Assembly (NCBI RefSeq): GCF_003859795.1
Contig: NZ_RQYI01000019.1
Span: 1-43,797 of the forward strand
Length of the DNA stretch: 43,797 nt
From: Alloprevotella sp. OH1205_COT-284
Lineage (GTDB): Bacteria > Bacteroidota > Bacteroidia > Bacteroidales > Bacteroidaceae
Direction of reading: 5' to 3'
Position 1 is the stretch's first letter; every line of letters begins with the position of its first letter. The position numbers were made by a program, and so were the translations under genes. The notes beneath the pieces were generated by a model. The model did not search any database and was not told where the DNA came from. It saw nothing but the letters and a program-made list of their open reading frames with translations. Shown here piece after piece: positions 9,866 through 31,553 of the stretch.

Positions 9866-10250
9866 TCCCCTTGTTTTTTTGTTTTTGCCGTTTTGCTTCC
9901 GCTAAAACGCCTTTCTCGTTGATTTCCAGTTTGTTTCGTGCGAAGGCAAGTGAAGGCAAGAGGTGGAGGGGGATTGCTAATGTCTTGATTTCCAATAATG
10001 TCCGGTGAAGGCAAATAGGGCTGTTTGCTTTCACTTGCTTCCGCAATTTTCGGAGAAAAAACGGCGTAACAGAGGTGGTGAAGGCAAAAAGTCGTTTCAT
10101 CGGCTTGATTGTCAGTGTGTTATGATTTGTGTTTTCGCTTTGCCTTCACTTGCCTTCACCGGTTTTTGTTGATTATCAATTGGTTATCTTGTTTTGCGGA
10201 GGCAGTGAAAGCAAAAACACTACATAAGGGATACGCGCGCGTGCGCGCGA
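9866..10250 (+). repeat. palindromic intergenic element, copy A (about 385 bp)
   Basis: First of three copies. Ordered arms: R1 GTTTTGCTTCCGCTAAAACG (9890-9909), F1 GCGAAGGCAAGTGAAGGCAA (9940-9959), F2 GGTGAAGGCAAA (about 10004-10016), R2 TTTGCTTTCACTTGCTTCCG (about 10024-10043), F3 GGTGAAGGCAAAAA (about 10077-10090), R3 TTTGCCTTCACTTGCCTTCA (about 10139-10158), F4 GCGGAGGCAGTGAAAGCAAA (about 10196-10215), then the tail ACGCGCGCGTGCGCGCGA (about 10233-10250). R1 is complementary to F4, F1 to R3 and R2 to F3 around one centre near 10052, so the whole block can fold back on itself. It lies between the 3' end of pabC and the 5' end of the leftward secreted protein gene. I see no credible gene in it. 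Confidence 0.85.
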
Positions 10251-10296
10251 AGGAATGTTCTTGGGAGGAGTTTTCAAGGCTCGAAAAAACAACTGC

Positions 10297-10959
10297 CTAA
10301 GAGGGCGTTTTTTTTAGCTCTGAGGTAGTTTGATCTACAAGGCTTGTAGGGGAATGGAACCGTATGCAATCGGTGGGCAGGTCGATTTCTCCCCAACGAA
10401 TCATGGAGTTGAAAAGTCGGAGGCGGGAGAAACGGGACAGGCCATTGGCGGGAATATCGCTTTCGACCAACACGCCGCCGGCGAGCAGGGCGGCGCGGTG
10501 CGTGCCGGCGAGGAGGGGAAGAGAGGGCGTGTGCCACGCGCGGCCGTCGAAAAGAGCGAGATTGGCAATGGTGGTGTCGGTGAGCAGCCCGTTGCGCACG
10601 ATGATGACGTCGTCGGCCGTGCTGCGGAGGGCGAACAGGGCGTTGAGCACGGAACGGTCGGCGGATTTGCGAGGATAGGCTGCGTGGTCGGCTTCGATGC
10701 AACGCAAGCGAGAGATGGGGCGGAGGGTGTAGGGCGAAAACGTGACGTCTGCGATGCTCGAAGCGTCGTAGATCACACGACAGCGCACGCGATCGAGATA
10801 ACGAAGATCGGCCGGGAGGAGAGAGAGGCAGGCGGAGAGGTCGAACTCGGAATGGGGCGACTGTTCGTGGGCGAGGGTGGCGCGCAGGCGTGCTCGGTGA
10901 TAGTCGAGGCGGAGAGGGTGTCCGCGTTCGATGCAGATGGTTTCAACGTAGCGGTGCAT
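10297..10959 (-). CDS. pabC: aminotransferase class IV, probable 4-amino-4-deoxychorismate lyase
   Basis: A 220-residue fold-type IV PLP enzyme. The likely Schiff-base lysine is K98 in YPRKSADR, and the region IIVRNGLLTDTTIANLALF with PLLAGTHRAALL carries the cofactor-binding pattern of the family. PabC converts aminodeoxychorismate to 4-aminobenzoate and pyruvate for folate synthesis. Sequence alone does not separate it from D-amino-acid or branched-chain aminotransferases. The deciding evidence is context: its start overlaps the end of pabB by 17 bp, implying translational coupling. The protein is shorter than E. coli PabC (269 aa), as in many Bacteroidota. Confidence 0.85.
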   Translation of the reverse strand: MHRYVETICIERGHPLRLDYHRARLRATLAHEQSPHSEFDLSACLSLLPADLRYLDRVRCRVIYDASSIADVTFSPYTLRPISRLRCIEADHAAYPRKSADRSVLNALFALRSTADDVIIVRNGLLTDTTIANLALFDGRAWHTPSLPLLAGTHRAALLAGGVLVESDIPANGLSRFSRLRLFNSMIRWGEIDLPTDCIRFHSPTSLVDQTTSELKKTPS

Positions 10960-11929
10960 AGACTTTTTGTTTCATCTCTTCGTATTCGGCCTCCATGCGG
11001 CTGTTGATCGTGATGCCGCCGCCGGTTTTGAACACAAGGGTGCCGTCGGCCTCTTGTTCGACGAAGCGGATCATCACCGCACTGTCGAGGGTGGCACCGT
11101 CGAACACGCCCATTATGCCGGTGTAGAAACCGCGTTCGTAGGTTTCGGCCTCGGCAATGATTTGCATCGTTTTGACTTTGGGCGCGCCGGTGATGCTGCC
11201 GGCAGGAAGCAGTTGGAAAAGGAGGCTGCCCAAACGGCGAAGATGGTCGGTGGGGAGACGGCCGACAATCTCGGAGCTGGTTTGGAGGAGCTTTCCGCGG
11301 TGGGTTTCGATGCTTTCGAGATAGCGATAGCGGCGCACTGCGACTTCGGAGGCCACGATGCTGAGGTCGTTGCGGATGAGGTCGACAATGGTGGCGTGTT
11401 CGGCCGCTTCTTTCGGGTCGTCGAGCAGTCGCCGTGCGGCTTGGGCATCGGTGGCGGCAATGGTGCCTTTCATCGGGTAGGCACTGATGAGGCCGTCGGC
11501 GATGCGCACAAAAATTTCGGGAGAGAAACAGACGAAATGCTCTTTCCACCACAGCCGATAGCGCGCTTGTGTGTGAGTGTAGAGGTCGGCCAAAGAGAGC
11601 GAGGTGGTCAGGGGGACGCGGCAGGTGAGGTTGGTCAGAAAACTGTTGCCTTCTTGCAATTCCGCCGTCACTTTGTTGAAAGAACGGCGATAGTCGTCGA
11701 GAGAGGGCGGTTGTGGTTGCCAAAGAGGCGGCTCGGTAAGTGGAGTGGGGGAAGTGCGACCGTTGTGCACGCGGCCGAAATCGAAGCGCAATTCTTCTTC
11801 ATTCACTTCGTCGAGCGGAAGAAGGAGAATGTTTTCCTGCCGATAGTCGATGACAAAAAGAAAAGGTCGTCCCTCACCGCCCCATTGGTTGATGAGGTGC
11901 TCGGCTTGGGTTTGTGAATAGCGTTTCAT
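10943..11929 (-). CDS. pabB: aminodeoxychorismate synthase component I
   Basis: A 328-residue chorismate-binding enzyme. The conserved core is complete: AYPMKGTI, DPKEAAEHATIVDLIRNDL, SSEIVGRL, PAGSITGAPKVKTMQII and ERGFYTGIMGVFDG, with the final KTGGGITINSRMEAEYEE. It adds ammonia to chorismate, normally with glutaminase PabA, which is not in this window. It is shorter than E. coli PabB because the N-terminal TrpE-like region is reduced, as is common in this phylum. A longer in-frame start at 12295 runs antisense through the rhodanese gene and is rejected in favour of MKRYSQTQAEHL. It is coupled to pabC. Confidence 0.9.
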   Translation of the reverse strand: MKRYSQTQAEHLINQWGGEGRPFLFVIDYRQENILLLPLDEVNEEELRFDFGRVHNGRTSPTPLTEPPLWQPQPPSLDDYRRSFNKVTAELQEGNSFLTNLTCRVPLTTSLSLADLYTHTQARYRLWWKEHFVCFSPEIFVRIADGLISAYPMKGTIAATDAQAARRLLDDPKEAAEHATIVDLIRNDLSIVASEVAVRRYRYLESIETHRGKLLQTSSEIVGRLPTDHLRRLGSLLFQLLPAGSITGAPKVKTMQIIAEAETYERGFYTGIMGVFDGATLDSAVMIRFVEQEADGTLVFKTGGGITINSRMEAEYEEMKQKVYAPLR

Positions 11930-11952
11930 CGAAAGTGGGTTGCTTGTTGAAG

Positions 11953-11989
11953 CACATCGCCGAACAATCGGCGACTGTTCGGCGGTGTG
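11953..11989. repeat. intergenic inverted repeat before pabB
   Basis: Arms CGCCGAACA (11958-11966) and TGTTCGGCG (11976-11984) extend outward through CACAT/GTGTG with one imperfect pair. It lies between the rhodanese stop (12003) and the pabB start. There is no T tract on the leftward strand, so it may be an mRNA processing or attenuating hairpin rather than a terminator. Confidence 0.5.
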
Positions 11990-12002
11990 TGGGGGGAGAG
12001 AT

Positions 12003-12392
12003 TTATTTTCTGACAAGCGGAAGCCGTGCAGACATCCAGCCGAGTATGCCGTTTTGGAGTTCGACAACTTTATAGCCGTTGCGAGCGAGGATGCGAACGG
12101 CCTGTTTGCTGCGGTTGCCGCTGCGGCAGTAGAGGGCGATGGTTTTGTTTTTGGGGAGTGTGGCGAGCGATTGTTGTTCGAAACCGCTGCCCAACACGTC
12201 GATGTTGATGCTTCCTTGTATGTGCCCTTCGGCATATTCTTGGGCGGTGCGCACATCAAGACGGACAACATTGTCTTGGGTGATGATCTTGGCAAAGGCT
12301 TCGGCCGAAACGGACTCGGTGCCTTCGGGAGATTGGCAGGAGAAAAGAGAGGAGAGAAACATGGGAATGTGTATGAGAAGTTGTTTAATCAT
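12003..12392 (-). CDS. rhodanese-like domain lipoprotein
   Basis: A 129-residue protein with a short lipoprotein signal (C19 in SLFSC) followed by one rhodanese domain. The active-site loop CRSGNRS places the catalytic cysteine at C89, and the domain opens with VVRLDVRTAQEYAEGHIQGSINID. Such exported single-domain rhodaneses transfer sulfane sulfur or act in periplasmic thiol chemistry, and the substrate is unknown. It lies 73 bp upstream of pabB and 91 bp downstream of the fimbrillin-like gene on the same strand, so it may belong to a longer transcript. Confidence 0.88.
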   Translation of the reverse strand: MIKQLLIHIPMFLSSLFSCQSPEGTESVSAEAFAKIITQDNVVRLDVRTAQEYAEGHIQGSINIDVLGSGFEQQSLATLPKNKTIALYCRSGNRSKQAVRILARNGYKVVELQNGILGWMSARLPLVRK

Positions 12393-12483
12393 GAATTGAA
12401 AGGTTTAAGTGTCGGTCGGAAAGACTCGGCGTTTGAAAAAGTGGGAAAAAGACGTGGTAAGAGAAGCGGCGGCGGGCGGTGGT

Positions 12484-13839
12484 TCAAGAAAACTTGATGT
12501 GTACGCGTTTGACCAAACGAAGATGATAGTTTTTCACCGTTTTGCCTGCGGCAAGGATACCGCCGCCGAGACGAAAGGCGTAGCTCATCGTTGCCGCTTC
12601 GCAAAGATAGCGGGCGTTTTTCTGATTGTAAGTGGTGTAAACCGGTTCTCCGCCGAGGGAAGAGAGGGTTTGGTTGAGTTGCGCGAGCTGTTCGCCCGAA
12701 TAGAGTTCGGACAAACGGCGTGCCGTCTCTTGCGAGGGAATGCTCCAACCCGTCAGCGTGCCTTCGGTGTAGGTCTGTGCAAGGCCTTGGGCTTCGTCGG
12801 GAGAGAGGGTGGAGAGCGCAGAGGGCAGATTGCTCCAACCTTGGGTCGAAAGCAAAATGAGATCGGCGGCTTCCGCGGTTTCGTTTTCCACGAATGCCAC
12901 GACATGGTGACCTTTCCAAACAGATCCGGCACGAGGGCGTTCGTTTGGCGAGGTCGGAGTGTCGTCGGGCGAAGAGGGAGGTTCGAGAGGCAAAGGCTGG
13001 CCGGCACCGAATGAGAAAGTACTTTCAAAAGGTGCATTCCAGCCGATTGACAAGATCTCGCCGTCGATGAGCATGTCTCCCGTTGTGGAATAGCTGCCTT
13101 TGAGGCGATAGGGAGTGGCGGCTTTGAGACCGGAATTGAGTGTGAAACCGTATTGTCGGGTTTGAGAGGCTTCGGTGAGAGAAATGCTCAACACGGTGGA
13201 CGAACGGTCATTGGGGAAGACGTATTTCGTGCCGGTGCTCCATGTGCCGTCGGAGTTTTTCCGGCAAGGCAGAAGGGTGGCGGATGGAGAGGAGTAGGCG
13301 TTGTTCCATGTCAATTGTCGGGGCAGGTCGTTGAGTTTCACGCTGACGGCTTCGACTGCCGAGGGGATATTGGAGAGCGTGATTTCCATGCCGGCCACGG
13401 CATAGGCGAGGGTGAGAGTGACGCTTGTCTTGGACGTGCCGACGGTGAGTGCTGCCTCACCACGCATCAAAGGTTGTTCGGCCTGATTGTTTTCGGTACT
13501 CATCGACAAGGCTGCGGCATTGACGTCGGTCGGCTCTTCGAGGCGATAGGCCGTGTGGCCGCTCAGTGCCACGATGCGATAGTTGCCGGAGGGCAGCGAG
13601 AGGGCAAGCGGCGTGGCGACACTCTCAATTGTTTGTCGGGCGCGACATCGACCGGTGTCGTCGAATGCATAGACGGCAATGGGGTAGAGAGGCTGTGTGC
13701 CCACTGCGGTGCGTGTGCGGATGTTTACTTTGTGTTGCTTGTGGGTTATGCTTCCTTTATCGTCGGGAAGTTCGATAGTATCGCAGGCACTGACCAACAG
13801 AACTGCGGCCATGAGGAATGATGAAATGTGAAATTTCAT
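12484..13839 (-). CDS. FimB/Mfa2-like fimbrillin-associated lipoprotein
   Basis: A 451-residue lipoprotein starting MKFHISSFLMAAVLLVSAC, lipobox cysteine C19. The pattern is that of FimB/Mfa2 or fimbrillin-like anchors of Bacteroidales: an early VNIRTRTAVG strand, an Ig-like sandwich with YPIAVYAFDDTG, LPSGNYRIVALSG and VTLTLAYAVAGMEITL, then a Pro-rich linker (about 333-350) and a C-terminal globular region from GSVWKGHHVVAF. The end KNYHLRLVKRVHIK is typical of family members. It should be exported and lipidated, possibly surface-exposed, and may anchor or be part of a fimbria. The start 150 bp upstream is rejected because it hides the lipobox. It sits 82 bp behind the metalloprotease gene. 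Confidence 0.72.
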   Translation of the reverse strand: MKFHISSFLMAAVLLVSACDTIELPDDKGSITHKQHKVNIRTRTAVGTQPLYPIAVYAFDDTGRCRARQTIESVATPLALSLPSGNYRIVALSGHTAYRLEEPTDVNAAALSMSTENNQAEQPLMRGEAALTVGTSKTSVTLTLAYAVAGMEITLSNIPSAVEAVSVKLNDLPRQLTWNNAYSSPSATLLPCRKNSDGTWSTGTKYVFPNDRSSTVLSISLTEASQTRQYGFTLNSGLKAATPYRLKGSYSTTGDMLIDGEILSIGWNAPFESTFSFGAGQPLPLEPPSSPDDTPTSPNERPRAGSVWKGHHVVAFVENETAEAADLILLSTQGWSNLPSALSTLSPDEAQGLAQTYTEGTLTGWSIPSQETARRLSELYSGEQLAQLNQTLSSLGGEPVYTTYNQKNARYLCEAATMSYAFRLGGGILAAGKTVKNYHLRLVKRVHIKFS

Positions 13840-13921
13840 GAGAATTGGAATAAACGCATAATGCCATTTCTCCGGGAGTGAGAGAGCATGGTGGTGATGG
13901 AGAGGAAGAAAGGATGGCGGT

Positions 13922-15310
13922 TTAGTGCAAAACCCTTTTCGTCGTTCTTTTGCCATTGGACGTGATGACAACGAGTAGAACCCCGGCATGATTTTGTAGG
14001 GCGAAGCGTTCTTGCCGATGGATGGAGATGCGTTGGTGCAGGTGTCGGCCGTCGAGAGTGGTAATCGCTATGTTGCTGTGAAGAGGGGCGGTCACGGTGA
14101 GTGTGCCGTCGGTCATCTCTATGGAACTTTCGGAAGCGGAGGAGGGAGGCAGATTCGTGATATGATTTCCTTGTGTCACGGTGATGACGGCATCGGGGAA
14201 GAACTCCTCGTCGGACGATTGAAGCGAGCCGTTTTTATCGTCATCTTTCTCCTCGGAGGGCTGTTTGGCGTCTTGGGGATTGTTGCGCGAGATGGTGATT
14301 TTTCCGATTCTGGTGTTTTCCGTCGGGTTGGCTTTCACTTTGATGGTCAGAATCATGTCATCGTATCCGTTGGGATGAGAGATTGTGAGCCAGTCTGCAT
14401 CGCTTGTGGCAAAAAACACTCCGTTGGTGCGTAAGAGCAGTTGTCGGGTCTGTGCTTCGTTGTCGGGAGCCCACTCCGTAAACTCCGGATAGTATCGGTC
14501 TTCGAGGAAGTCACCAAATAGGGAAGTCGCCGGAATGGTTTCGCGGATGCGCCGCACGCTGTTTTCCGTTTCACTTCCCATCGTGACTCCTTTCCAGATG
14601 GTCTTAGGACTTGAATAAAGGGGGATGGCGTCCACGGTGGTACACATAATTGTGCCGATGTCGCCTCTCACAGCCCCTACCGCATAAGGATGTATGCCGC
14701 CATTGCCACGTTCGTGTTCACAGCCGAGGATATGTCCGATTTCGTGTGCCGTTGTAAGAAAGTGTTTTGCTGCACGTATGGAACAAAAGGCAGCCATACG
14801 ATCACTGTTTAATGGGGCTAAACCATGATGCCCGTCATTGAATGGATTGGTGTAGAAAATAACAATGTCGGCTTTGGTTTCTTTTCTTCTTGCTTTTACA
14901 TCTTGATGATTGCTGACGATGTTCATTCCATCGGTGATGCTTTGAGCGGTTGATTGGATGCTTAGGCTGCCAACACAACGAAAGCGTGCATTGATGCCTG
15001 AATTGTGGTAAATTTGATTGAGGTTTTGGATAACGTTATTCGACATGGTTTCGATGGTCTCGAAATGTTCTTGGGCATAGGCCTGTCCCGTGGGGTCGAA
15101 AACAAAGAGCAAGTCGATTTCGTAAGCATTATCAATATTGTTTTGGGGAAGAGGGAAGTCTTTCTTACTAAAAGTCTTGACGCCACGTGTGGTTACTCCA
15201 TCCCGACATGTTATACAGCAGATGCGATCGAGTGATTGGGCGTAAATGCAAGAATTACCGCAACCGCATAATAGCAGCAAAGATAGTAAAAGATATTGTC
15301 CGTATTTCAT
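13922..15310 (-). CDS. secreted zinc metalloprotease with BACON domain and sorting tail
   Basis: A 462-residue exported protease. The signal peptide ends near residue 25 (IYAQ). The catalytic domain (about 60-275) has the metzincin motif HEIGHILGCEHE (H189, E190, H193, H199) and a Met-turn at IMC (M222), matching reprolysin/M12-like families. It is followed by a BACON-type domain (about 290-350: ATSDADWLTIS then TRIGKITIS), an acidic linker, and a C-terminal segment with TTLDGRHLHQR that resembles a type IX secretion sorting signal. It probably acts at the cell surface or outside the cell. The fimbrillin-like gene follows on the same strand, and a processing relationship is possible but unproven. 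Confidence 0.87.
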   Translation of the reverse strand: MKYGQYLLLSLLLLCGCGNSCIYAQSLDRICCITCRDGVTTRGVKTFSKKDFPLPQNNIDNAYEIDLLFVFDPTGQAYAQEHFETIETMSNNVIQNLNQIYHNSGINARFRCVGSLSIQSTAQSITDGMNIVSNHQDVKARRKETKADIVIFYTNPFNDGHHGLAPLNSDRMAAFCSIRAAKHFLTTAHEIGHILGCEHERGNGGIHPYAVGAVRGDIGTIMCTTVDAIPLYSSPKTIWKGVTMGSETENSVRRIRETIPATSLFGDFLEDRYYPEFTEWAPDNEAQTRQLLLRTNGVFFATSDADWLTISHPNGYDDMILTIKVKANPTENTRIGKITISRNNPQDAKQPSEEKDDDKNGSLQSSDEEFFPDAVITVTQGNHITNLPPSSASESSIEMTDGTLTVTAPLHSNIAITTLDGRHLHQRISIHRQERFALQNHAGVLLVVITSNGKRTTKRVLH

Positions 15311-15370
15311 AATTCTTTTAAACGAGAATGAGCTTGAAAAATGTGTGAGATATTGTCGGACTCGGAGTTA

Positions 15371-17560
15371 TCAGCGAATGAAAAGTAATTCTCTATATTT
15401 GGGAAGTGTCCACATTTGATCTTCCACAATGAGTTCGAGTTTGTCAATGTGTTTGCGAATGGCATTCAAAAATGGTTCAACCTCATCGTGATAAGCTATG
15501 GCCAAATCACGAATGTTTTCGAGTTTGTTGACTATTTTTCGCTTTTCGACCATTTCCTCTACGGCATTGACGATGAAATCGGTGTGGAGGTTGATCTTTT
15601 CGATCAGCGTCACGTTGTAGGCACTCAGCTGAGCTGCCTTTTCGGGAGGGAAGGCTTTGAGAATTTTGCTCACGTTGTCGACCAATACGCTTTGATATTT
15701 CGTTGCCACGGGAATAATGTGGTTCATGCAGAGATCTCCGAGCACGCGGCTTTCGATCTGCACCTTTTTGTAGTAGGTTTCCCATTTGATCTCGTTGCGT
15801 GCTTTGAGTTCGTTGCGGTTCATCACCTTGGTCGATTCAAACATCTTTATCGTGGCTTCGTCCAAATATCTGTCGAAGACGATCGGACAACTGGTTTCGC
15901 AGTCCAATCCTCTTCGTGCGGCTTCGGCTTTCCACTCGTCGCTGTATCCGTTGCCGTCGAAATGTATGGGGCGACACGTCTTGATGTCTTCTCGCAACAC
16001 TTCGAGAATGGCACTGATTTTGTTTTGTCCCGCTGCGATGTGTTCGTCCACTCGTGCCCGGAAATTGTTGAGTGCTTCGGCGGCTGCGGCGTTGAGGGCG
16101 ATCATCGCGCTGGCACAGTTGGCCGACGAACCAATGGCGCGAAACTCAAACCGATTGCCCGTGAAGGCGAAAGGAGAGGTGCGGTTGCGGTCGGTGTTGT
16201 CGATCATCAGTTCGGGAATCTGCGGAATGTCGAGTTTGATGCCGTGTTTACCTTCGAGAGTGAACAGCTCGTCGGTCGTCGAGTTTTCGACTTTGTCGAG
16301 CAGTTCACTCAGTTGCCGGCCGAGGAAGGTCGAAATGATGGCCGGCGGTGCTTCGTGTCCGCCGAGCCGGTGGGCGTTGGTCGCGCTCATGATGCTGGCT
16401 TTCAGCAGTCCGTTGTGGCGATGCACGGCCATGAGTGCCGACACCACGAAGGTGAGAAACCGCAGGTTCTCTTCCGGTGTTTTTCCGGGAGCGTGGAGAA
16501 TGACGCCCGTGTCGGTCGTCAGCGACCAGTTGTTGTGTTTGCCACTGCCGTTTACGCCGGCAAATGGTTTTTCGTGGAGCAGGCAACGGAAACCGTGTTT
16601 GCGTGCGATTTTGCGCATGAGTGAAACGAGCAACATGTTGTGGTCCACGGCGAGGTTGCATTCCTCGTAGATCGGCGCAAACTCAAATTGGTTGGGTGCC
16701 ACTTCGTTGTGTCGGGTCTTGCAGGGGATGCCGAGTTCGAGTGCCTGAATTTCGAGGTCTTTCATAAACTCCGTCACGCGTTCGGGAATGGCGCCGAAAT
16801 AGTGGTCTTCCATTTGCTGGTTTTTTGCACTGTCGTGGCCCATGAGGGTGCGCCCGGTGAGCAAGAGGTCGGGGCGTGCGGCATAAAGCCCTTCATCGAC
16901 GAGGAAGTATTCTTGTTCCCAACCGAGATTGGCCGTCACCTTCTTAACGTCCGGATAGAACAGCTGTGCCACCGATGTGGCCGCCTTGTCGACGGCGGCG
17001 ATGGCTTTTTTCAGCGGTGCTTTGTAGTCGAGTGCCTCTCCCGTGTAGGAGATGAAGACGGTGGGGATCATCAGCGTGTCTCCGACGATGAACACGGGGC
17101 TTGTGGGATCCCACGCCGAGTATCCGCGCGCTTCGAAAGTGGAGCGTATGCCGCCGTTGGGGAAAGAGGAGGCGTCGGGCTCTTGTTGCACGAGCAGTTT
17201 GCCCGTAAACTCTTCGATCATCCCCCCCTTGCCGTCGTGTTCGACAAAGGCGTCGTGTTTTTCGGCCGTGCCTTCGGTGAGCGGCTGAAACCAGTGGGTG
17301 CAATGCGTCACCCCCATTTCGATTGCCCATTGCTTCATGCCTTGTGCGATTTCGTCGGCCGTAGCCCGATCGAGCGGCGTGCCGCTGTCGATGGCGGCGC
17401 AATACTTGTTGTAGGTCTTCAACGGCAGATACTTGCGCATCTTGTCTTGGTTGAACACATACTTTGCGTAATACTCGGAGGGGCGTTCCGTGGGGGTGGC
17501 TGCGGGAATGGGGCGTTTTTTGAACGCTTCTTCCACCACTTTGAATCTCAAACTGCTCAT
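15371..17560 (-). CDS. glnN: glutamine synthetase type III
   Basis: A 729-residue GSIII enzyme, which condenses glutamate and ammonia using ATP. Type III is identified by length and by GVTHCTHWFQPLTEGTAEKH, GWEQEYFLVDEGLY, NEVAPNQFEFAPIYEECN, HEKPFAGVNGSGKHNNWSL and NRTSPFAFTGNRFEFRAIGSS, motifs absent in that form from GSI and GSII. It is the usual nitrogen-assimilating enzyme of Bacteroidales. A leftward TACCTTTG at 17645-17652 suggests a promoter about 85 bp before the start codon, although the -33 box is weak. The terminator of the upstream flotillin gene isolates it. The metalloprotease gene starts 60 bp after its stop with no clear terminator between. Confidence 0.97.
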   Translation of the reverse strand: MSSLRFKVVEEAFKKRPIPAATPTERPSEYYAKYVFNQDKMRKYLPLKTYNKYCAAIDSGTPLDRATADEIAQGMKQWAIEMGVTHCTHWFQPLTEGTAEKHDAFVEHDGKGGMIEEFTGKLLVQQEPDASSFPNGGIRSTFEARGYSAWDPTSPVFIVGDTLMIPTVFISYTGEALDYKAPLKKAIAAVDKAATSVAQLFYPDVKKVTANLGWEQEYFLVDEGLYAARPDLLLTGRTLMGHDSAKNQQMEDHYFGAIPERVTEFMKDLEIQALELGIPCKTRHNEVAPNQFEFAPIYEECNLAVDHNMLLVSLMRKIARKHGFRCLLHEKPFAGVNGSGKHNNWSLTTDTGVILHAPGKTPEENLRFLTFVVSALMAVHRHNGLLKASIMSATNAHRLGGHEAPPAIISTFLGRQLSELLDKVENSTTDELFTLEGKHGIKLDIPQIPELMIDNTDRNRTSPFAFTGNRFEFRAIGSSANCASAMIALNAAAAEALNNFRARVDEHIAAGQNKISAILEVLREDIKTCRPIHFDGNGYSDEWKAEAARRGLDCETSCPIVFDRYLDEATIKMFESTKVMNRNELKARNEIKWETYYKKVQIESRVLGDLCMNHIIPVATKYQSVLVDNVSKILKAFPPEKAAQLSAYNVTLIEKINLHTDFIVNAVEEMVEKRKIVNKLENIRDLAIAYHDEVEPFLNAIRKHIDKLELIVEDQMWTLPKYRELLFIR

Positions 17561-20210: not shown

Positions 20211-20600
20211 TTTATACCCCTAATGTTTTGTTTTTTCGGTTTTGCCTTCGCAAAATGAATTAACCGTTTGATAATCCGAACGTTATTAGCGAAGGCAAGT
20301 GAAGGCAAACTGTTTTTTTTGTTTTTCAATATTTTGAAAATCAGTCTGTTGCTGTGAAGGCAAACCGGGGCGTTTGCCTTCACCTCCTTCCGCCTCTTCC
20401 GCGCTAAAACCGCCCCTTTCGAGGGTTGTGAAGGCAAAAAATCGGTGCAATGGGTTGTATTTCAGTTGGTTGTAAAATGGGTTTTCGTTTTGCCTTCACT
20501 TGCCTTCGCTAATATCGTGTTGGCATACAGCTTGTTACCGCTTTTTGCGGAGGCAGTGAAGGCAAAATACAATCAATAGGTATACGCGCGTGCGCGCGAG
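20211..20600 (+). repeat. palindromic intergenic element, copy B (about 390 bp)
   Basis: Second copy, same orientation and arm order as copy A: R1 TTTTGCCTTCGCAAAATG (about 20240-20257), F1 GCGAAGGCAAGTGAAGGCAA (20289-20308), F2 GTGAAGGCAAAC (about 20355-20366), R2 GTTTGCCTTCACCTCCTTCC (20372-20391), F3 GTTGTGAAGGCAAAAAATCG (about 20425-20444), R3 TTTGCCTTCACTTGCCTTCG (about 20489-20508), F4 GCGGAGGCAGTGAAGGCAAA (about 20547-20566), and the tail TACGCGCGTGCGCGCGAG (20583-20600). F1 and R3 are perfect reverse complements. Outer ends TATACCCCTA and TAGGTATA are also near-complementary. Between the arms the sequence differs strongly from copies A and C, yet total length is within a few bases. 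Confidence 0.85.
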
Positions 20601-20897
20601 AGGGGGAGGATTGTATGCCTTTTGAGGTTGCGGGTAAAACGGGATGGGAGGTGTGTAAAATTAGATTGGAGGTAGAATGTTTTAGATTGGAGGTAGAATG
20701 TTTTAGATTGGAGGCAGATTTGTTTGGGACGGAGGCAGATCGGGGCGTGAACAAAAATGGGGAGCGATCGTTGTCGAAACGAAAGCTCCCTGAAAATATA
20801 CCGCTGACAATCAAGGACGGATTTGAATGATCGGTGGATGTTGCCGTGTGGTGCGGAGGAAGGAGAGAGGCGGCTGCGGCCGTTTTTCCCGGTGTGT
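20601..20897. repeat. degenerate 21-bp tandem repeat (20659-20742) in a noncoding stretch
   Basis: Four consecutive 21-bp units, the second being TTTTAGATTGGAGGTAGAAT plus G at 20680-20700. The first and third units are near matches and the fourth is degenerate. The unit differs from the array at the left window edge although the period is the same. The rest of the interval up to the dipeptidyl peptidase stop at 20898 shows no gene. Confidence 0.7.
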
Positions 20898-25040: not shown

Positions 25041-25047
25041 ATAAAAC

Positions 25048-25078
25048 TTGTTTTTTTTCGTCTTAGAGTGTAACTTTG
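25048..25078 (+). promoter_or_regulatory. Bacteroidetes-type promoter of the hexosaminidase gene
   Basis: TTG (25048-25050), a 20-bp spacer, TAACTTTG (25071-25078). The predicted start near 25084 gives a leader of about 20 nt before the ATG at 25103. The -33 boxes of the two divergent promoters are 7 bp apart. Confidence 0.78.
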
Positions 25079-25102
25079 CCGCAAAACCTTTAATCTTCTT
25101 CC

Positions 25103-27157
25103 ATGTTTATCGCTACTTTGCTCTTGGCCTTTTCCGCATTTTCGTCGGGCGATGTGCTTCCGGCTCCTTTTCGCATGGAGTTGGGAGAGAGCGGCAAGGC
25201 GTTTCGTGTTGCAGGAGCGCGCATCAAATGCGATGTTCCGCTTCATGCCGAAACTCATCGGTTGTTGCACCAAATGGTGGCTGTTTCAAAGCATGAACAA
25301 GGCACTTCCGGAGGCGTAATGGTCTTCACCGAACGCCCTTTGTTCGATGCTTCTTTTCGTTCGTTTGAGGCCTACGAGTTGCACATCTCTCCCGACAGCC
25401 TCCACGTTGTTGCCGCCACCCCCACGGGCTTCTTGCGTGCAACACAGACTTTGGTGCAGATGTGCGACAAGAAAGGGCGTGTTCCCTGCGGCCGCATTGC
25501 CGACGCACCGGCTTATGAATGGCGGGGGCTGATGATCGATGTGAGCCGCCACTTCTTCCCCGTCGAGTTCTTGAAGAAACAAATCGACATCATGGCCGCT
25601 CATAAGCTCAATCGGTTGCATTTGCATCTTACCGATGCCGCCGGCTGGCGAATGGAGATCAAACGCTATCCGCGTCTTACCACCTTGGCGGCATGGCGCG
25701 ATGCGGCATTGTGGAAAGACTGGTGGCACGGCACGCGAAAATATGCGGAGCAGGGCACGCCTCAGGCTTATGGCGGATATTACACGCAGCGGGAATTGCG
25801 AGAACTGGTGGCCTATGCCTCAGAGCGTGGCATCGACATCGTGCCCGAAATCGAAATGCCGGCGCATTCCGAAGAGGTGCTGGCGGCCTATCCCGAACTC
25901 TCGTGTACGAGTGCTTCGTCTTGTCCGTCAGACTTCTGTGCCGGCAACGAGGCGGTCTATGATTTTCTGCAAAACGTGCTCGACGAGGTGATGGACGTGT
26001 TTCCCTCTCGCTACATACACCTCGGCGGCGATGAAGCGGGGAAAGAGAGTTGGAAAACCTGTTTGCGCTGTCGTCGCACGATGATTGAAAACGATATGAC
26101 CGCCCCCGACAGTATGCCCGACCCCTCGGCCTTGGAGCGTTTGCAAGCCCATTTTATGCGACGGATGGGGCGCTACCTTTCGGCGCACGGCCGTCGAATG
26201 ATCGGGTGGGACGAGGTGATAGACGCCACTTTGCCCGAAGACGCGGCGGTCATGGTGTGGCGCGACCTCCGACATGCCCGCCGCGCCGCCGCGCTGGGGC
26301 GTGAAGTCATTCTTTCGCCCGCTGCCTATTGCTACCTCGATGCCTATCAGGACGCTCCCCCCTCGCAGCCCGAAGCCATCGGGGGATATTTGCCTTTCGA
26401 GCAAGTGGCCGCTTTCTCTCCCGAAACTTTTGCGGATGAGGCGCACCGCCGACGGATCAAAGGAGTGCAGGGCAATCTTTGGACGGAATACGTTTCCACG
26501 CCCGACCACGCCGAATACATGCTTTATCCCCGTATGCTTGCCTTGGCCGAAATAGGGTGGAGCGGTGCGTCGCGCCGTTCGGCGTCCGACTTGCGTCGTG
26601 CCGTCATCAATCGCGTCGCGCAGTTGCGTGAGAACGGCGTGCGTGCCTTTGATCTGCGCACCGCCGTGGGGCAACGTGCTCTCTCTCACCCTCTCTCCCA
26701 TAAAGCTCTGGGTGCAACGGTGGTTTATCATCGCCCTTTCTCCGCCTCTTATGCCGCCTCCGGAGTTGCCGCTTTGACCGACGGACGTTGCGGCGGTTGG
26801 AGCTATCACGACGGAGCTTGGCAGGGATTTCTTGCCGATGCGCAAGCGTCGTGTCCCTCGCTCGACGTCACCCTCGACCTCGGAGCCGAACGCCGCATTT
26901 CGTGGGTGGGTGCCGACTTCATGCAGGTGTGCAATCCCGAAATATTCTATCCCTCCGCGTTTCGTGTGAGCGTTTCTCGCGACGGACAAAACTACACGCT
27001 TTTGGGAGAACAGTCCGTTCCCTCTCAAAAGACAATCCTCCCCGACATACGCACCTTTTTCATAAAACGAAAGGCTCGTGCCCGTTACATTCGTGTTCAA
27101 GCCTCGCCGTCGGCATTCGGCGGTTGGCTGTTTACCGATGAAATAATCGTAAAATGA
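25103..27157 (+). CDS. exported beta-N-acetylhexosaminidase, GH20
   Basis: A 684-residue exported glycosidase with a short signal sequence (about 1-15), a GH20b N-terminal domain (about 18-135), a GH20 catalytic barrel (about 138-490) and a C-terminal F5/8-type carbohydrate-binding domain (about 555-684). The catalytic pair D310-E311 lies in HLGGDEAGK, where the aspartate positions the substrate acetamido group and the glutamate is the acid/base. Other family marks are RGLMIDVSRHFFPVEFLK, HLHLTDAAGWR and EIEMPAHS. It trims terminal GlcNAc or GalNAc from host or dietary glycans. Its stop overlaps the coaX start by four bases (ATGA). Confidence 0.95.
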   Translation: MFIATLLLAFSAFSSGDVLPAPFRMELGESGKAFRVAGARIKCDVPLHAETHRLLHQMVAVSKHEQGTSGGVMVFTERPLFDASFRSFEAYELHISPDSLHVVAATPTGFLRATQTLVQMCDKKGRVPCGRIADAPAYEWRGLMIDVSRHFFPVEFLKKQIDIMAAHKLNRLHLHLTDAAGWRMEIKRYPRLTTLAAWRDAALWKDWWHGTRKYAEQGTPQAYGGYYTQRELRELVAYASERGIDIVPEIEMPAHSEEVLAAYPELSCTSASSCPSDFCAGNEAVYDFLQNVLDEVMDVFPSRYIHLGGDEAGKESWKTCLRCRRTMIENDMTAPDSMPDPSALERLQAHFMRRMGRYLSAHGRRMIGWDEVIDATLPEDAAVMVWRDLRHARRAAALGREVILSPAAYCYLDAYQDAPPSQPEAIGGYLPFEQVAAFSPETFADEAHRRRIKGVQGNLWTEYVSTPDHAEYMLYPRMLALAEIGWSGASRRSASDLRRAVINRVAQLRENGVRAFDLRTAVGQRALSHPLSHKALGATVVYHRPFSASYAASGVAALTDGRCGGWSYHDGAWQGFLADAQASCPSLDVTLDLGAERRISWVGADFMQVCNPEIFYPSAFRVSVSRDGQNYTLLGEQSVPSQKTILPDIRTFFIKRKARARYIRVQASPSAFGGWLFTDEIIVK

Positions 27158-27873
27158 TTCTGACTCTCGATATTGGCAACACACGTTCAAAATTCGCCCT
27201 CTTCGACGGCTCCGACATTGTGTGTCATCTCCCCGTTTCCCACGAACGCACGCTTTCGACGCTGTCCGACTTTTTTTCTCGTCATCGTACCATTTCTGCC
27301 GTTCATTGGTGTAGCGTCGGCGTGGAAATCGAGGGGTTCGAATCGGCCTTGGCCGCCATGTCTGTGCCGGTTCGCCGCTTGCTGCCCGCTTCTCCTCCGT
27401 CGGGCATCACGGTGGCTTATCTCACGCCCGACACTCTCGGTGCCGATCGTCTTGCCGCCGTGCTCGGTGCTCGCTCGCTTTGTCCCGATCGTCATTTGCT
27501 CGTGATCGATGCCGGAACGTGCATCACGTTCGACCTCTTGTTGGCCGATGGTCGATATATGGGCGGAAACATCAGTCCCGGTCTGGCGATGAGGCTCGAA
27601 GCCATGCATCGTCTGACGGCGCGTTTGCCCTTGGTCAATGCCGACGGCGAAACCCCTCTCATGGGGCAAACCACCGAGACGGCTTTGCGTAGCGGAGCCA
27701 CTCTCGGCATTGTCTACGAAATCGAAGGCTACATCCGTAGACTCCAAGCGGAATACGGAGATATTTGCGTTTTTTTAACGGGAGGAAATCGTTTTGATTT
27801 TCGTATCTCATCAGAAAGTTGCATCTTTGCAGACGATTTTTTGGTGCTTCGAGGGCTGGCCGCTCTCGGTTGA
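27154..27873 (+). CDS. coaX: type III pantothenate kinase
   Basis: A 239-residue CoaX, which phosphorylates pantothenate in the first committed step of coenzyme A synthesis. The ASKHA-fold signatures are present: DIGNT with D6, TLGADRLAA (D99), VIDAGTCITFD (D119, the likely catalytic base) and GGNISPG. Type III enzymes are not feedback-inhibited by CoA, as known for the family. Translation is probably coupled to the hexosaminidase gene through the four-base overlap. An outer membrane protein gene follows after 21 bp, the usual order in Bacteroidales. Confidence 0.95.
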   Translation: MILTLDIGNTRSKFALFDGSDIVCHLPVSHERTLSTLSDFFSRHRTISAVHWCSVGVEIEGFESALAAMSVPVRRLLPASPPSGITVAYLTPDTLGADRLAAVLGARSLCPDRHLLVIDAGTCITFDLLLADGRYMGGNISPGLAMRLEAMHRLTARLPLVNADGETPLMGQTTETALRSGATLGIVYEIEGYIRRLQAEYGDICVFLTGGNRFDFRISSESCIFADDFLVLRGLAALG

Positions 27874-27894
27874 GCACTTCAAACCGAACGTTTC

Positions 27895-29214
27895 ATGAAG
27901 AAGACATTTCTCCTCGCCGCAATGGCCGTATCCTCCCTCGTAGCCACCGCGCAAGAAAGTGCCGTGTCCTCGGCCTACTCGCGCTATGGCGTCGGCCTGT
28001 TGGACAATCGTGCATCGGGTTTCAGCAAAGGCATGGCCGGCACTGCCGTCGGCATGTATGACGGTCGCGTGCTCAATGTCGGAAATCCGGCCTCCTATGC
28101 CCGTATCGATTCTCTTTCGTTTTTGTTCGACGTCGGAATGTCTTTGCAAAGCGCCAATCTCAGTGCCAATGGCGTGAAAGCCAATGCCCACTCCGCCCGA
28201 TTCGACCATTTGTCCGTGGGGTTTCGTCTGAAACGCAATTTGGGCGTCAGTTTTGGTGTGCAGCCATATAGCAACGTCGGCTACGAAATCACCGCTCAGG
28301 GTGCTCCCATTCCCAACGGAGCTTCGGAAGTCGTCACTCCCACCACCACCTATCTTGGCGACGGCGGCTTATATTTGCTCCATGGCGGTGTGGGCTATGC
28401 GCCCCTCGACGCACTCTCGTTGGGAGCGAATGTCAGCTATTTGTGGGGAACGCTCAATCATTCGGCCACCACATCTTACGATCATCCGTCGATACACAGC
28501 CTGCGTCGTGCCTACGATGCCGAAGTGCGCTCTTACGCACTCGACCTCGGCGCGCAATACACCCAACGCCTCGGTCGCAAACATCGCTTCGTGCTCGGAG
28601 CCACCTACGGATACGGCCATCAGCTCAACGGCACATCAAACTTCTACAACCAGCGACTGGACAAACGTTCCGTATCGGCCGCCGACACCCTGTCCGTACG
28701 CAATGCCTACGGCCTTCCCCACAGCTTTGCGGTCGGCTTGACTTGGCAGTGGCAAAACAGTCTTCGTGTCGGTCTCGACTACACCCGCCTCCAATGGGGC
28801 GAGGTCACCTCTCCCATGTTGAAGACGGCTGCCGACGGCACCTTGTCGTATGTCAAAGAGAAAGGAGCCTACACCGATCAAAACAAAATCGCTTTGGGGG
28901 CAGAATACATTCGCGACCCCAACGGCTTCACTTGGAGCAGTCGTGTGCGCTACCGCATGGGGGTGAGCTATGCCTCTCCCTATGCCCTCATTGACGGGCG
29001 AAAAGGGCCGCAAGTCTATACCGCCGCCCTCGGAGTCGCGCTCCCCATTATCACCGCCCACAACGCTCGTGACAATTACAGCTATCTCAATCTTTCCGCG
29101 CAATACGAGCACGTCAAACCTCAAATGCCGGGGCAGATCACCGAACGCTACTTCCGCCTTTCCATCGGCCTCTCGTTCAATCAAAGGTGGTTCACCAAGT
29201 GGAAAGTCGATTGA
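27895..29214 (+). CDS. outer membrane beta-barrel protein
   Basis: A 439-residue protein with a signal peptide (about 1-19, cleaved near ATAQ). The alternating polar/aromatic strand pattern and a C-terminal segment rich in aromatic strands (YFRLSIGLSFNQRWF) mark an outer membrane barrel. The N-terminal SAYSRYGVGLLDNRASGFSKGMAGTAVGMYDG and NVGNPASYARIDSLSF resemble FadL-like/PorV-like hatch regions of Bacteroidota. The position between coaX and lptC is widely conserved in the order, which hints at an envelope role, but the transported substrate is unknown. Confidence 0.82.
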   Translation: MKKTFLLAAMAVSSLVATAQESAVSSAYSRYGVGLLDNRASGFSKGMAGTAVGMYDGRVLNVGNPASYARIDSLSFLFDVGMSLQSANLSANGVKANAHSARFDHLSVGFRLKRNLGVSFGVQPYSNVGYEITAQGAPIPNGASEVVTPTTTYLGDGGLYLLHGGVGYAPLDALSLGANVSYLWGTLNHSATTSYDHPSIHSLRRAYDAEVRSYALDLGAQYTQRLGRKHRFVLGATYGYGHQLNGTSNFYNQRLDKRSVSAADTLSVRNAYGLPHSFAVGLTWQWQNSLRVGLDYTRLQWGEVTSPMLKTAADGTLSYVKEKGAYTDQNKIALGAEYIRDPNGFTWSSRVRYRMGVSYASPYALIDGRKGPQVYTAALGVALPIITAHNARDNYSYLNLSAQYEHVKPQMPGQITERYFRLSIGLSFNQRWFTKWKVD

Positions 29215-29259
29215 CCCCTGCCTCCTCTTCGGCAGACGATTGTGCTGCAACAAACCGAA

Positions 29260-29312
29260 CAAAATCACGAAAACCACGGATCGTTGTCGATCTTGTGTCT
29301 TTCGTGATTTTG
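29260..29312. repeat. perfect inverted repeat between the outer membrane protein gene and lptC
   Basis: Arms CAAAATCACGAAA (29260-29272) and TTTCGTGATTTTG (29300-29312) form a perfect 13-bp stem. Inside it is a second potential helix GATCG/CGATC. It lies 46 bp past the outer membrane protein stop. There is no clear T tract beyond it, so it may be an intrinsic terminator of weak form or an mRNA stability hairpin that separates lptC expression from the upstream genes. Confidence 0.7.
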
Positions 29313-29404
29313 TCCATAGATTTGCCCCTGTGGCGGTGTGTCTTTCCTTCCTCGTCGTTCATCTGTCCGTTTTCCTCTCTTTCTTCTGTTATTTCCTAAT
29401 CCCT

Positions 29405-30016
29405 ATGCGCCAGCTTCTTCACAGCTTTCTCCTTGTTTGTCTTGTCGGTTTCGGAGCGGCTTGCAGCAACGACGCTCCCCCTCAGGGTGCCGCCGTTCGC
29501 AATCGCGATTCCCTCCCGGTCATGGTGACCTACGGCGTTTCCAAACTCATCAGCGATTCGGGGGTGACTCGTTACAAAATCATCTCCGAGGAGTGGCGTG
29601 TGTTCGACCGCACCCGTCCGCAACGTCAGGAGTTTGTGAAGGGAGTGTTTTTGGAGCGATACGACGACAAGTTCAACGTCAATCTTTTCATCACCGCCGA
29701 CACCGCCTATTGGTACGACCAAAACCTTTGGGAGTTGCGCGGACGCGTTCGTGTGCGCAACGAGGAAAACGGCACTCTCTATCGCAGCGAACAACTCTAT
29801 TGGGACATGGGAAGGCATGAATTCTATTCCAACGTATATATGCGCATCGTCACTCCCGATCGCGACATACAGGGAGATCGTTTTCGTTCCGACGAACAAA
29901 TGACGCGCTACGAAGTTTCTCGCTCTCGCGGCTTTCTGCCCGTACCCAAAGGCATGGGCGACAGCCCCTCTTCCGCCGTTTCCGCAGCCGGGTCTGCCGA
30001 CAGTTTGGGAGGCTGA
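29405..30016 (+). CDS. lptC: LPS export protein LptC
   Basis: A 203-residue lipoprotein-type LptC of the LPS transport bridge. It has a signal with lipobox C20 (GFGAAC) and a beta-jellyroll with repeated paired strands (GVSKLISDSGVTRYKIISEEWRVFDRT, FVKGVFLERYDDKFNVNLFITADTAYWYDQNLWELRGRV, GDRFRSDEQMTRYEV), the organisation expected of LptC/OstA-fold proteins. It would pass lipopolysaccharide from LptBFG to LptA. A Ser/Ala-rich tail follows the fold. The start was placed at MRQLLHSFLL. The coaX-OMP-lptC order supports the call. Confidence 0.88.
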   Translation: MRQLLHSFLLVCLVGFGAACSNDAPPQGAAVRNRDSLPVMVTYGVSKLISDSGVTRYKIISEEWRVFDRTRPQRQEFVKGVFLERYDDKFNVNLFITADTAYWYDQNLWELRGRVRVRNEENGTLYRSEQLYWDMGRHEFYSNVYMRIVTPDRDIQGDRFRSDEQMTRYEVSRSRGFLPVPKGMGDSPSSAVSAAGSADSLGG

Positions 30017-30111
30017 GGCCGTCTGTTGCAAACGACGACGGCGCATTTTGTGTCGTGTCGGTCAAGGCGGTGTTCTGTCCGATCGTAGAGCGACCGTACA
30101 ACGACAAACAG

Positions 30112-30165
30112 CGATCGATCCGTTTCTCGCCGAGGGCGAACAGACGGATCGATCGTTTCTTTTTT
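30112..30165 (+). terminator. terminator of lptC
   Basis: Arms CGATCGATCCGT (30112-30123) and ACGGATCGATCG (30144-30155) pair perfectly over 12 bp, with an inner TCGCC/GGCGA helix, followed by TTTCTTTTTT. Confidence 0.88.
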
Positions 30166-30190
30166 GAGCGGCAGGCGGTGCGCTTGTCGG

Positions 30191-30910
30191 TCAGTCGCGC
30201 GTTTTGATTTTCAACTCTTTCAGTCTTTGTTTCGTCGCACTGTCCACGCGAAGAGATTCGCAGATTTTCCGAATGGCTTTGTTGTGTGTCCATTTCGGGA
30301 GGCGCATGTCCTGCAAGACGGAAAGAGTGGCTTCGGGCTGTTTGATGAAACACTCGGCCACCGCCCATGCCACTGCCATTTGGGCGTAGTATCCCTCGTG
30401 TCGAATGGCCGTGTAGTCATCGAGGAGCGACAAAATATGTTGTTCGTCGATGAAATGTTTCATCGACATCACCACGCCGAAGCGCACTTCATATTCGGCA
30501 TCGCTTCTCATTCGTTCGCGGAGGTAGCTCCACAAGCGGTCTGCGTGGCGTTTGGCAAAGGTGTGGTTGCCCGAAAAGGAAAACACGTCGCACACCGACC
30601 ATGAGTTGATCACCGCTACGAAGCGCGAAACGCGATGCAGATATTCCTCAATGTCTGTCACGGGAATGAAACCCAACACCAAGCCGTGGAGCATGCGTTC
30701 TTCCATGTAGTGTGTGCCCGGAGCGGCGAGATATTCCTGCCATGTTCGGCTTTTGACGATGCGCCGTGCCAAATCGCGCACATCGGGCACGCGCAACCCC
30801 AACATGTTTTCCACGTCGGGGTGTAGCGACTGTGCAAACGAAGGGTTTGCTCCGGGGAGCAGGGCGAGCAGGTGTTGTTCTATGGTGAGTTGATCGAGCA
30901 GATAGGCCAT
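30191..30910 (-). CDS. AlkD-like DNA alkylation repair protein
   Basis: A 239-residue all-helical HEAT-like repeat protein of the DNA alkylation repair (AlkC/AlkD) superfamily. Typical stretches are LGLRVPDVRDLARRI, INSWSVCDVFSFSGNHTFAKR, EYEVRFGVVMSMKHFID and YYAQMAVAWAVAECFIKQP. AlkD glycosylases excise positively charged alkylated bases, but many Bacteroidota paralogues are untested. The Met of MAYLLDQLTIEQHL is chosen. The reading frame continues upstream to 31402 through the repeat element, but that part has no family similarity and lies beyond the promoter at 30968-30998. Confidence 0.87.
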   Translation of the reverse strand: MAYLLDQLTIEQHLLALLPGANPSFAQSLHPDVENMLGLRVPDVRDLARRIVKSRTWQEYLAAPGTHYMEERMLHGLVLGFIPVTDIEEYLHRVSRFVAVINSWSVCDVFSFSGNHTFAKRHADRLWSYLRERMRSDAEYEVRFGVVMSMKHFIDEQHILSLLDDYTAIRHEGYYAQMAVAWAVAECFIKQPEATLSVLQDMRLPKWTHNKAIRKICESLRVDSATKQRLKELKIKTRD

Positions 30911-30967
30911 GGTGCGATGATTGTAAAACTGCCGGTGAAGGGCTGGGCGACTTGAAACTTTCGGCTT

Positions 30968-30998
30968 CAAAGATACGAAATGTTGCAGAATGAGCAAA
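30968..30998 (-). promoter_or_regulatory. leftward Bacteroidetes-type promoter of the AlkD-like gene
   Basis: On the minus strand TTTG (30995-30998), a 19-bp spacer and TATCTTTG (30968-30975), 57 bp before the start codon at 30910. It fixes the start choice for the gene. Confidence 0.75.
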
Positions 30999-31167
30999 AA
31001 CATTTCTCGCCATACGCCCATTGCCCGAATGGGGAGCTTCGTGCAAGCCGTCGGCAAGTGTGGCGTTGTACACGCCGAGGGAAGACCGCGGCGGAAGCGG
31101 GCGCACAACTCTCTTTCCGCCCAATCCTCTCCGAAACGTCTTCCGAAAGCCTTGCGCGTGGCAAAAT

Positions 31168-31553
31168 ATCCCCTGTTTTTTTGTTTTTGCCGTTTTGCTT
31201 CCGCTAAAACGATTATCTCTCTGACTTTTAGCGCGTTTCTTGCGAAGGCAAGTGAAGGCAAACGATTTTTTAGGATTTTCAACGTGTTGGAAATCAGCTT
31301 GTTTTGGTGAAGGCAAAAATCCCTTCTCCTTTCACTTACTTCCGCTAAACAGCGCGTGAAAACCGCAATGTTCGAGGTTGTGAAAGGAGAAAATCGATGC
31401 AACCCGTTGTTTGTCAGGTTGTTGAAAAACTCGTTTCCGTTTTGCCTTCACTTGCCTTCGCATGGAATGGTTTGATAATCATTTGATTATGTCGTTTTGC
31501 GAAGGCAGTGAAAGCAAAAAACAATTACAAGGGAACGCGCGCGTGCGCGCGAG
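31168..31553 (+). repeat. palindromic intergenic element, copy C (about 386 bp)
   Basis: Third copy, same orientation. R1 GTTTTGCTTCCGCTAAAACG (about 31192-31211), F1 GCGAAGGCAAGTGAAGGCAA (31242-31261), F2 GGTGAAGGCAAAA (about 31306-31318), R2 CCTTTCACTTACTTCCGCTA (about 31328-31347), F3 GTTGTGAAAGGAGAAAATCG (about 31377-31396), R3 TTTGCCTTCACTTGCCTTCG (31441-31460), F4 GCGAAGGCAGTGAAAGCAAA (about 31499-31518), and the tail ACGCGCGCGTGCGCGCGAG (31535-31553). The first 43 or so bases match copy A almost perfectly, with one inserted base. In F3 and R2 base changes occur on both arms (GTGAAAGGAG opposite CTCCTTTCAC), which preserves complementarity and suggests selection on the fold or a copying process. 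Confidence 0.85.

Follow-up and report, generated by a model that had tools for sequence, protein, structure and literature searches.

A family of composite palindromic intergenic elements in Alloprevotella as candidate chromosome landmarks of the origin half

Introduction

The closest described counterparts of the DNA considered here are sets of repeated chromosomal sites and dispersed intergenic repeats. Thus, matS is represented by 23 repeats in 800 kb (PMC3330122), Ori is organized by MaoP/maoS in Escherichia coli (PMC5023128), approximately 70 Noc and 24-52 SlmA sites are present per chromosome and are under-represented near the terminus region (Ter; PMC4726725), and BrickBuilt of Porphyromonas gingivalis is an intergenic element with 23-nucleotide tandem repeats and a leader and tail, with 19 copies in one strain (PMC4596501). 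The subject of the present work is a palindromic intergenic element found three times in contig NZ_RQYI01000019.1 of Alloprevotella sp. OH1205_COT-284 (positions 1 to 43,797, i.e. the whole stretch of DNA analysed, hereafter the window).

The three copies are part of a family of approximately 60 elements in the genome of the window (G000; 2.31 Mb in 93 contigs), so that the family is larger than a first, sequence-only reading had noted. That reading had offered three options for the element, namely a non-autonomous mobile element, a structured RNA family and a protein-binding array. The last one fits best because the arm words are under constraint, the outer arms do not covary and the elements are intergenic, spaced and, in a relative, domain-restricted; a structured RNA is disfavoured, and a non-autonomous mobile origin keeps some support. 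Taken together, these features suggest that the family consists of chromosome landmarks bound by a putative protein rather than of ordinary junk repeats.

Structure and copy number

The three copies (W1, W2 and W3) lie on one strand, measure 385-390 bp each and, as had been described, share the arm order R1-F1-F2-R2-F3-R3-F4 followed by a CG-alternating tail, with R2 and F3 being degenerate in W3. The 20-mer of arm F1, GCGAAGGCAAGTGAAGGCAA, is the same in all of them. Across the initial 148 bp, with the words counted in, the identity to W2 is 61% for W1 and 74% for W3. The features are as follows.

9866..10250, + strand: element copy W1 (core, from the left T-rich end to the CG tail)
9891..9902, - strand: W1 arm R1, TTTTGCTTCCGC
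9940..9959, + strand: W1 arm F1, with the word GAAGGCA twice in direct orientation at a 10-bp distance
10005..10034, no strand: W1 F2/R2 inverted pair
10078..10088, + strand: W1 arm F3
10139..10159, - strand: W1 arm R3, the complement of F1 save near its end
10192..10216, + strand: W1 arm F4
10233..10249, no strand: W1 CG-alternating tail
10290..10349, no strand: degenerate 21-bp array units beside W1 (by eye, approximate limits, without a Tandem Repeats Finder call)
20211..20600, + strand: element copy W2
20289..20308, + strand: W2 arm F1
20489..20509, - strand: W2 arm R3
20543..20567, + strand: W2 arm F4
20584..20598, no strand: W2 CG-alternating tail
20661..20739, no strand: 21-bp tandem array beside W2 (Tandem Repeats Finder)
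31168..31553, + strand: element copy W3
31242..31261, + strand: W3 arm F1
31441..31461, - strand: W3 arm R3
31495..31519, + strand: W3 arm F4
31536..31551, no strand: W3 CG-alternating tail
31597..31652, no strand: degenerate 21-bp array beside W3 (by eye, approximate limits, without a Tandem Repeats Finder call)
1..213, no strand: 21-bp tandem array of 9.8 copies at the contig start (Tandem Repeats Finder), of the kind found beside elements

When G000 was searched with W1 (blastn), at least 69 matches were obtained and read as at least 40 distinct element places (40 of 84 candidates being scored), the best non-self match having an E value of 2.5e-64. The F4 pattern, when as many as 3 mismatches were allowed, gave 61 hits at 60 places as compared with 0 for the reversed control. 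With related copies genome-wide and such an excess of F4 hits, the likeness of the three copies is therefore not due to chance. The F4 hits are distributed over both strands (31 and 30), and thus no polarity is evident. When 40 copies were aligned (37 from elsewhere in G000 and the three of the window), words like GCGAAGGCAAGTGAAGGCAA proved conserved and the DNA between them largely variable among the columns listed.

Past the CG tail, many copies have a 21-bp near-palindromic array, typically GGTAGAAATTTCTACCTCAGA, which the sequence-only reading had overlooked. Of 41 sites, 18 reach 15 matches out of 21 at a shift of 21, versus none of 328 tests made with different shifts; within the window, Tandem Repeats Finder calls such an array in two places only, next to W2 and at the start of the contig. 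The latter suggests that a further element lies just off the contig. Both contig ends carry 21-bp array units (window 1-213 and 43645-43690), and the assembly probably breaks at these arrays. Small, low-scoring open reading frames (ORFs) overlap three elements of G000, W2 among them.

Distribution in the genus and change of the words

A general form of the arm word, GTGRARGNNGTGRARGYAAAA, was sought with up to 1 mismatch in 58 genomes of the genus, a pattern that quite different words would escape. Tens of such words (24-44 per strand, with controls at 0-1) are present in five genomes (G000, G005, G033, G062 and G064), a single one in 5 of the remaining 53 and none in 48, while in an order-wide draw of 393 genomes there are, apart from G000, at most 3 in each. 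The words vary among the species, being GCGRAGGCAGTGAARGC in G000, GTGAAGGNNGTGAAGG in G064, GTGGAAGCAGTGGAAG in G005 and GTGAAGGTTGTGAAAGCAAAAA in G033 and G062. Despite this change, the inverted arms, the CG-rich ends and (by eye) the 21-bp arrays recur across the carriers; the CG-tail pattern, when sought across the genus, was not discriminating.

Chromosomal placement and spacing

Placement could be followed in the relative G033, on a contig of 2,762,878 bp, one of six in its assembly (approximately 96% complete). Forty-three elements were placed there, of which 42 are inverted pairs and one was recognized from one arm only, with the exclusion from placement and spacing of four unpaired word hits with 3 mismatches (631555, 1155169, 1238978 and 2245735). 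The GC skew, sampled each 70 kb in 20-kb stretches, has its minimum (origin) at 1.40-1.47 Mb and its maximum (terminus) at 0.21-0.28 Mb. The stretch from 0.95 to 2.06 Mb, i.e. within approximately 0.65 Mb of the GC-skew origin, contains 37 of the 43 elements, and the Kuiper statistic of this placement was matched in 0 of 20000 simulations. With the contig taken as a circle, the biggest element-free arc spans 650 kb (P = 3e-4). The neighbourhood of the terminus is depleted, the first 436 kb (0-436 kb) being without elements; the sites are, in G033 only, domain-restricted. In the same contig dnaA is found at 1.08 Mb, parB at 2.07 Mb and an exact parS (16-mer) at 1.62 Mb (1620923). The skew also flips at 2.2-2.6 Mb, which may reflect an inversion or a misjoin. 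The distribution in G062, with 19 elements on contig C14 (447 kb) and the first 556 kb of contig C17 without a perfect word, is in line with domain restriction.

The elements also keep a minimum distance from each other. Among the 37 elements of the dense region of G033 the smallest gap is 11.46 kb, and none of the 10.7 gaps expected below 11 kb is seen. In G000, where single-element contigs were excluded and three places (C1:229589, C7:21076 and C9:13519) were added to the F4 set, the smallest of 40 within-contig gaps is 9.07 kb, as against 11.4 gaps expected and 0 seen below 9 kb (beyond contig C29 copies without F4 would go unnoticed, so that a shorter gap is possible there). For G062 the smallest of 32 gaps is 9.7 kb.

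Gene context and synteny

Genes were called with an in-house codon-usage caller, not a standard annotator, and the stretches of G033 that were sampled (1.26 of 2.76 Mb) were picked partly around elements. All 36 sampled elements (of 43) are intergenic between called genes, in stretches with a median length of 1.43 kb versus 0.21 kb for other gaps longer than 50 bp. Between the sister species G062 and G033 the positions are kept: of 34 orthologues of the genes nearest to G062 elements, 22 adjoin an element of G033, all 22 on the same side, as compared with 0 of 68 for farther genes and with a baseline of 72 of 771 sampled G033 genes that adjoin an element. The corresponding figures are 2/9 for the nearest genes and 1/5 for others in G064, and 1/6 in G005.

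The elements coincide with breaks of synteny. Of the gene pairs flanking G000 elements, 0 of 8 are neighbours in G033, as compared with 25 of 31 other pairs (non-adjacent: 8/8 versus 6/31; P = 5e-5), and for G062 the figures are 8 of 14 and 68 of 70 (non-adjacent: 6/14 versus 2/70; P = 2e-4). Those for G064 are 0 of 3 and 2 of 2 (non-adjacent: 3/3 versus 0/2), one of the two control pairs having an element in G033 that G064 lacks, and for G005 0 of 2 (non-adjacent: 2/2), with no controls. Where the two genes on either side of a G062 element are neighbours in G033, an element is between them there too (8/8), and the G062 elements missing between orthologous G033 genes sit at non-adjacent genes.

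Such a coincidence would be expected if the elements were recombination sites or borders of movable chromosome blocks, at least 9 kb long and lying between elements, that undergo shuffling or take up insertions at these sites. We consider this improbable. With length-matched controls, which are few, the effect weakens for intergenic stretches of at least 200 bp (P = 0.015 for G000, 6 controls, and P = 0.027 for G062, 18 controls) and loses significance for those of at least 400 bp (P = 0.20 and 0.18, respectively); with a 10-kb adjacency cut and all controls, P is 0.07 for G062. Long intergenic stretches may simply tolerate breaks, and recombination alone explains poorly why every copy should be under selection.

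Constraint on the arms

The constraint was gauged from 14 matchable pairs of positions in G033 and G062 (22-bp arms, 200-bp flanks). In the arms 17 of 614 sites differ (2.8%), 11 of the 17 coming from one poorly aligned pair (L252); differences amount to 1147 of 3488 sites (33%) in the inner spacer and to 2000 of 5245 (38%) in the outer flanks. Whole-element conversion cannot easily explain identical words with diverged spacers. The constraint sits on direct-repeat words within inverted arms, a pattern to be expected of protein sites.

A structured RNA, or a cis-regulatory or terminator repeat serving the adjoining genes, is given a very low probability. The inverted arms could form a long hairpin, and the inner F2/R2 and middle F1/R3 pairs remain pairable at the tested column in 34/35 and 35/35 copies, respectively, G-T counted. 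The outer F4/R1 pair, on the other hand, is A-C in 15 of 40 copies, without compensation at the single variable column, and hairpin pairing of the outer arms was rejected on this lack of covariation. As regards adjoining genes, convergent junctions are somewhat enriched in G033 (9/36 versus 53/571), but tandem and divergent junctions are occupied as well (23 tandem, 9 convergent and 4 divergent, versus 452, 53 and 66 for other junctions). The whole window has no match at the gathering score in Rfam, and a permissive search with W1 returned only three sub-threshold hits (E 0.13 to 0.94), so that a known RNA family was also rejected.

The main rival of the landmark reading, to which it comes second, is a relic or active family of non-autonomous transposons resembling miniature inverted-repeat transposable elements (MITEs), with the arm words as transposase sites, target immunity over at least 9 kb and a preference for insertion in the origin half. 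Although unlikely in our judgement, it would account for the minimum spacing, for the patchy occurrence in the genus, with tens of copies in 5 of 58 genomes, and for the presence at other loci of direct-word palindromes, one of them around a 23S_rRNA_IVP gene. At matching positions, however, the arms show less than a tenth of the divergence of the spacers and flanks, which is not expected of neutral copies. The sequence-only reading saw no transposase, and indeed no transposase-bearing copy was found: no autonomous relative with the same ends was found in G033 (approximately 96% of the genome), where all 42 arm pairs are within 0.7 kb, too short for the usual transposase gene, and no called gene lies inside any of 36 sampled elements (though a protein of approximately 120 amino acids would fit the longest). 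Neither target duplication nor a clean empty site was found, the outer flanks sharing words of at most 4 nucleotides in the 32/40 copies with both ends settable; the true ends of the element are uncertain. Finally, W1 has no match in phages and plasmids (blastn) and the F1 20-mer no exact match in viral contigs, and a phage or plasmid origin was rejected on these grounds, tested with G000 words only.

Candidate identities and the putative binder

The view that the element fits no known named family holds for the families covered, i.e. Rfam and, as judged from terminal repeats, BrickBuilt: of the 40 copies, only 0-2 carry the BrickBuilt terminal repeats CCGAAAGGTCTC and AAGACCTTTGCA when 2 mismatches are allowed, and membership was rejected.

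Canonical ParB-parS, or a Noc-type ParB paralogue acting on GTGAARG words, is the least probable of the explanations considered, with a very slight chance of being correct. In its favour, the GTGAAA of the words resembles a parS half-site. None of the 40 aligned copies contains the 16-bp parS palindrome (TGTTTCACGTGAAACA) with up to 4 mismatches, the exact parS being elsewhere in sampled G033 (1620923), and canonical parS was rejected. An extra ParB as binder was likewise rejected on the count of one ParB per carrier. The distribution of the elements is like that of Noc and SlmA sites, which are described as under-represented near Ter (PMC4726725).

Proposed role

That we are dealing with a clade-specific, vertically kept, protein-bound landmark set in the origin half of the chromosome, with a putative binder and a presumed function, is held by us at just short of an even chance. 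A landmark role is preferred since the distribution resembles that of matS-type domain sites and nucleoid-occlusion sites. The data establish the copy number, the intergenic location, the minimum spacing, the constraint on the arms, the shared positions in the sister species, the change of words among species and, for one relative, the placement around the origin; protein binding and role are what we infer.

Several observations weigh against it. Near-intact arms are needed for detection, so that decayed copies are undercounted, and the global alignments, which include poorly alignable stretches, inflate the spacer and flank differences somewhat. The agreement in position is modest across distant species (G000 versus G033: nearest genes 6/30, 5 of them on the same side; others 1/45). 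Origin-centred mapping comes from one relative only, G000 being in 93 contigs. ParB, the one protein family examined as a binder, is present in a single copy in each of the five carriers, likewise in most non-carriers. Gains or losses of elements occur, as they would for a spreading element, and spacers in G000 are more similar between copies on the same contig (0.458, 32 pairs) than between others (0.384, 748 pairs), the value for pairs less than 25 kb apart being matched in 0 of 5000 permutations. This higher similarity of nearby copies favours the MITE-like family, as do two G033 copies, at 1153 kb and 707 kb (446 kb apart), that are 82% identical over 409 bp. Detection bias is unlikely to be the whole story because 79 of 89 word hits in G033 are without mismatch, though up to 3 were allowed, and because all eight adjacent G062 junctions keep the element in G033. 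The landmark and ancient MITE readings are compatible, in that an ancient mobile palindrome may later have been co-opted.

In the proposed mechanism, each element would provide a platform of 0.2-0.4 kb (up to 0.7 kb) with inverted arms built of direct words of 8-10 bp, and with CG-alternating tracts and 21-bp palindromic arrays on its flanks. One or several host proteins would bind the arm words, and the bound sites might cooperate over long distances to mark or organize the origin-proximal domain, possibly as a macrodomain, in nucleoid occlusion or as a topological boundary. A fuller version, which we regard as doubtful, has composite palindromic landmarks tiling the origin half at intervals of at least approximately 10 kb, with selection keeping the binding words, the words having changed genome-wide along with the putative binder while the copies stayed in place, and the elements doubling as joints of conserved gene blocks.

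Related palindromes and other features

The family described here may be one specialized offshoot of a broader class that has been little described. In G004, a congener that is not among the five carriers, interspersed palindromes of a different kind are found at C1:1150477-1478300 (L331-L347), with direct 9-bp GAAGTTANC words in inverted arms. There are 10 such clusters in 400 kb, and they follow no spacing rule, since two are only 2.2 kb and two 5.7 kb apart. A detector of direct 8-10-bp repeats inside inverted arms, when run on 80 named loci (1.30 Mb, mostly Bacteroidales), found 10 clusters versus 0 in one shuffle of each; it recovers the three window copies and 8 clusters in G004, but 1 in a 424-kb stretch of G033.

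Inverted arms of direct 8-10-bp words (CAGATTACGCAGATTA, AACGAATGGAACGAAT, AGGAGTTAAAGGAGTT and others) are present in the named loci L094, L115, L118, L124, L129 and L160. In L151 (6341-6960) a palindrome with direct AGTAGTCA words surrounds an intact 121-amino-acid 23S_rRNA_IVP gene (PF05635, E 3e-39); this gene was rejected as a lead to an autonomous form, no tblastn likeness (E 1e-4) being found elsewhere in the 3.86 Mb examined. Runs of the short repeats TAGACGTTAGA and TCTAACGTCTAA, some of which adjoin an element, occur both in Alloprevotella oral taxon 473 (L091, approximately 9900-9970) and in G033 (around 1371.8 and 1373.5 kb). The same taxon gives the best named match for a protein of the window, at 60% identity, which is too low to fix the genus.

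Two further features of the window concern other sequences. At 5461-5814, tandem repeats of 27-33 bp lie in a short + strand ORF that is rich in lysine and cysteine codons, if the ORF is real. At 32311-32377, a 30-bp inverted repeat (90% complementary, with a 7-bp loop) is found directly upstream of an SO_0444-type Cu/Zn exporter gene.

Comparison with known systems

If the landmark reading is true, the five related species form a natural series of arm-word change over dozens of copies, in which co-variation could be used to look for the binder and the change of a genome-wide recognition code becomes approachable; the spacing rule and the coincidence of elements with synteny breaks would, in addition, be informative about how large independent chromosome domains are. 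We know of no chromosome-domain site system in Bacteroidales, and the literature listings likewise show none.

REP, BIME and REPIN sequences are dispersed intergenic palindromic repeats under sequence constraint; compared with them, the present elements are larger, fewer, spaced and, in one relative, domain-restricted. BrickBuilt is similar in being an intergenic Bacteroidales element with tandem repeats, but has terminal repeats like those of insertion sequences, whereas here the 21-bp arrays lie outside a palindromic core. Noc and SlmA sites are comparable in number and distribution, but to our knowledge no minimum spacing has been described for them, and they are short palindromes (14 bp for Noc); no extra ParB was found in the carriers here. 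With MatP/matS and MaoP/maoS the family shares the limitation of repeated DNA sites to one chromosomal domain, the difference being that matS is a 13-bp site in Ter, whereas the elements described here are composite palindromes of 0.2-0.4 kb or larger, placed around the origin and recognized by a putative binder.

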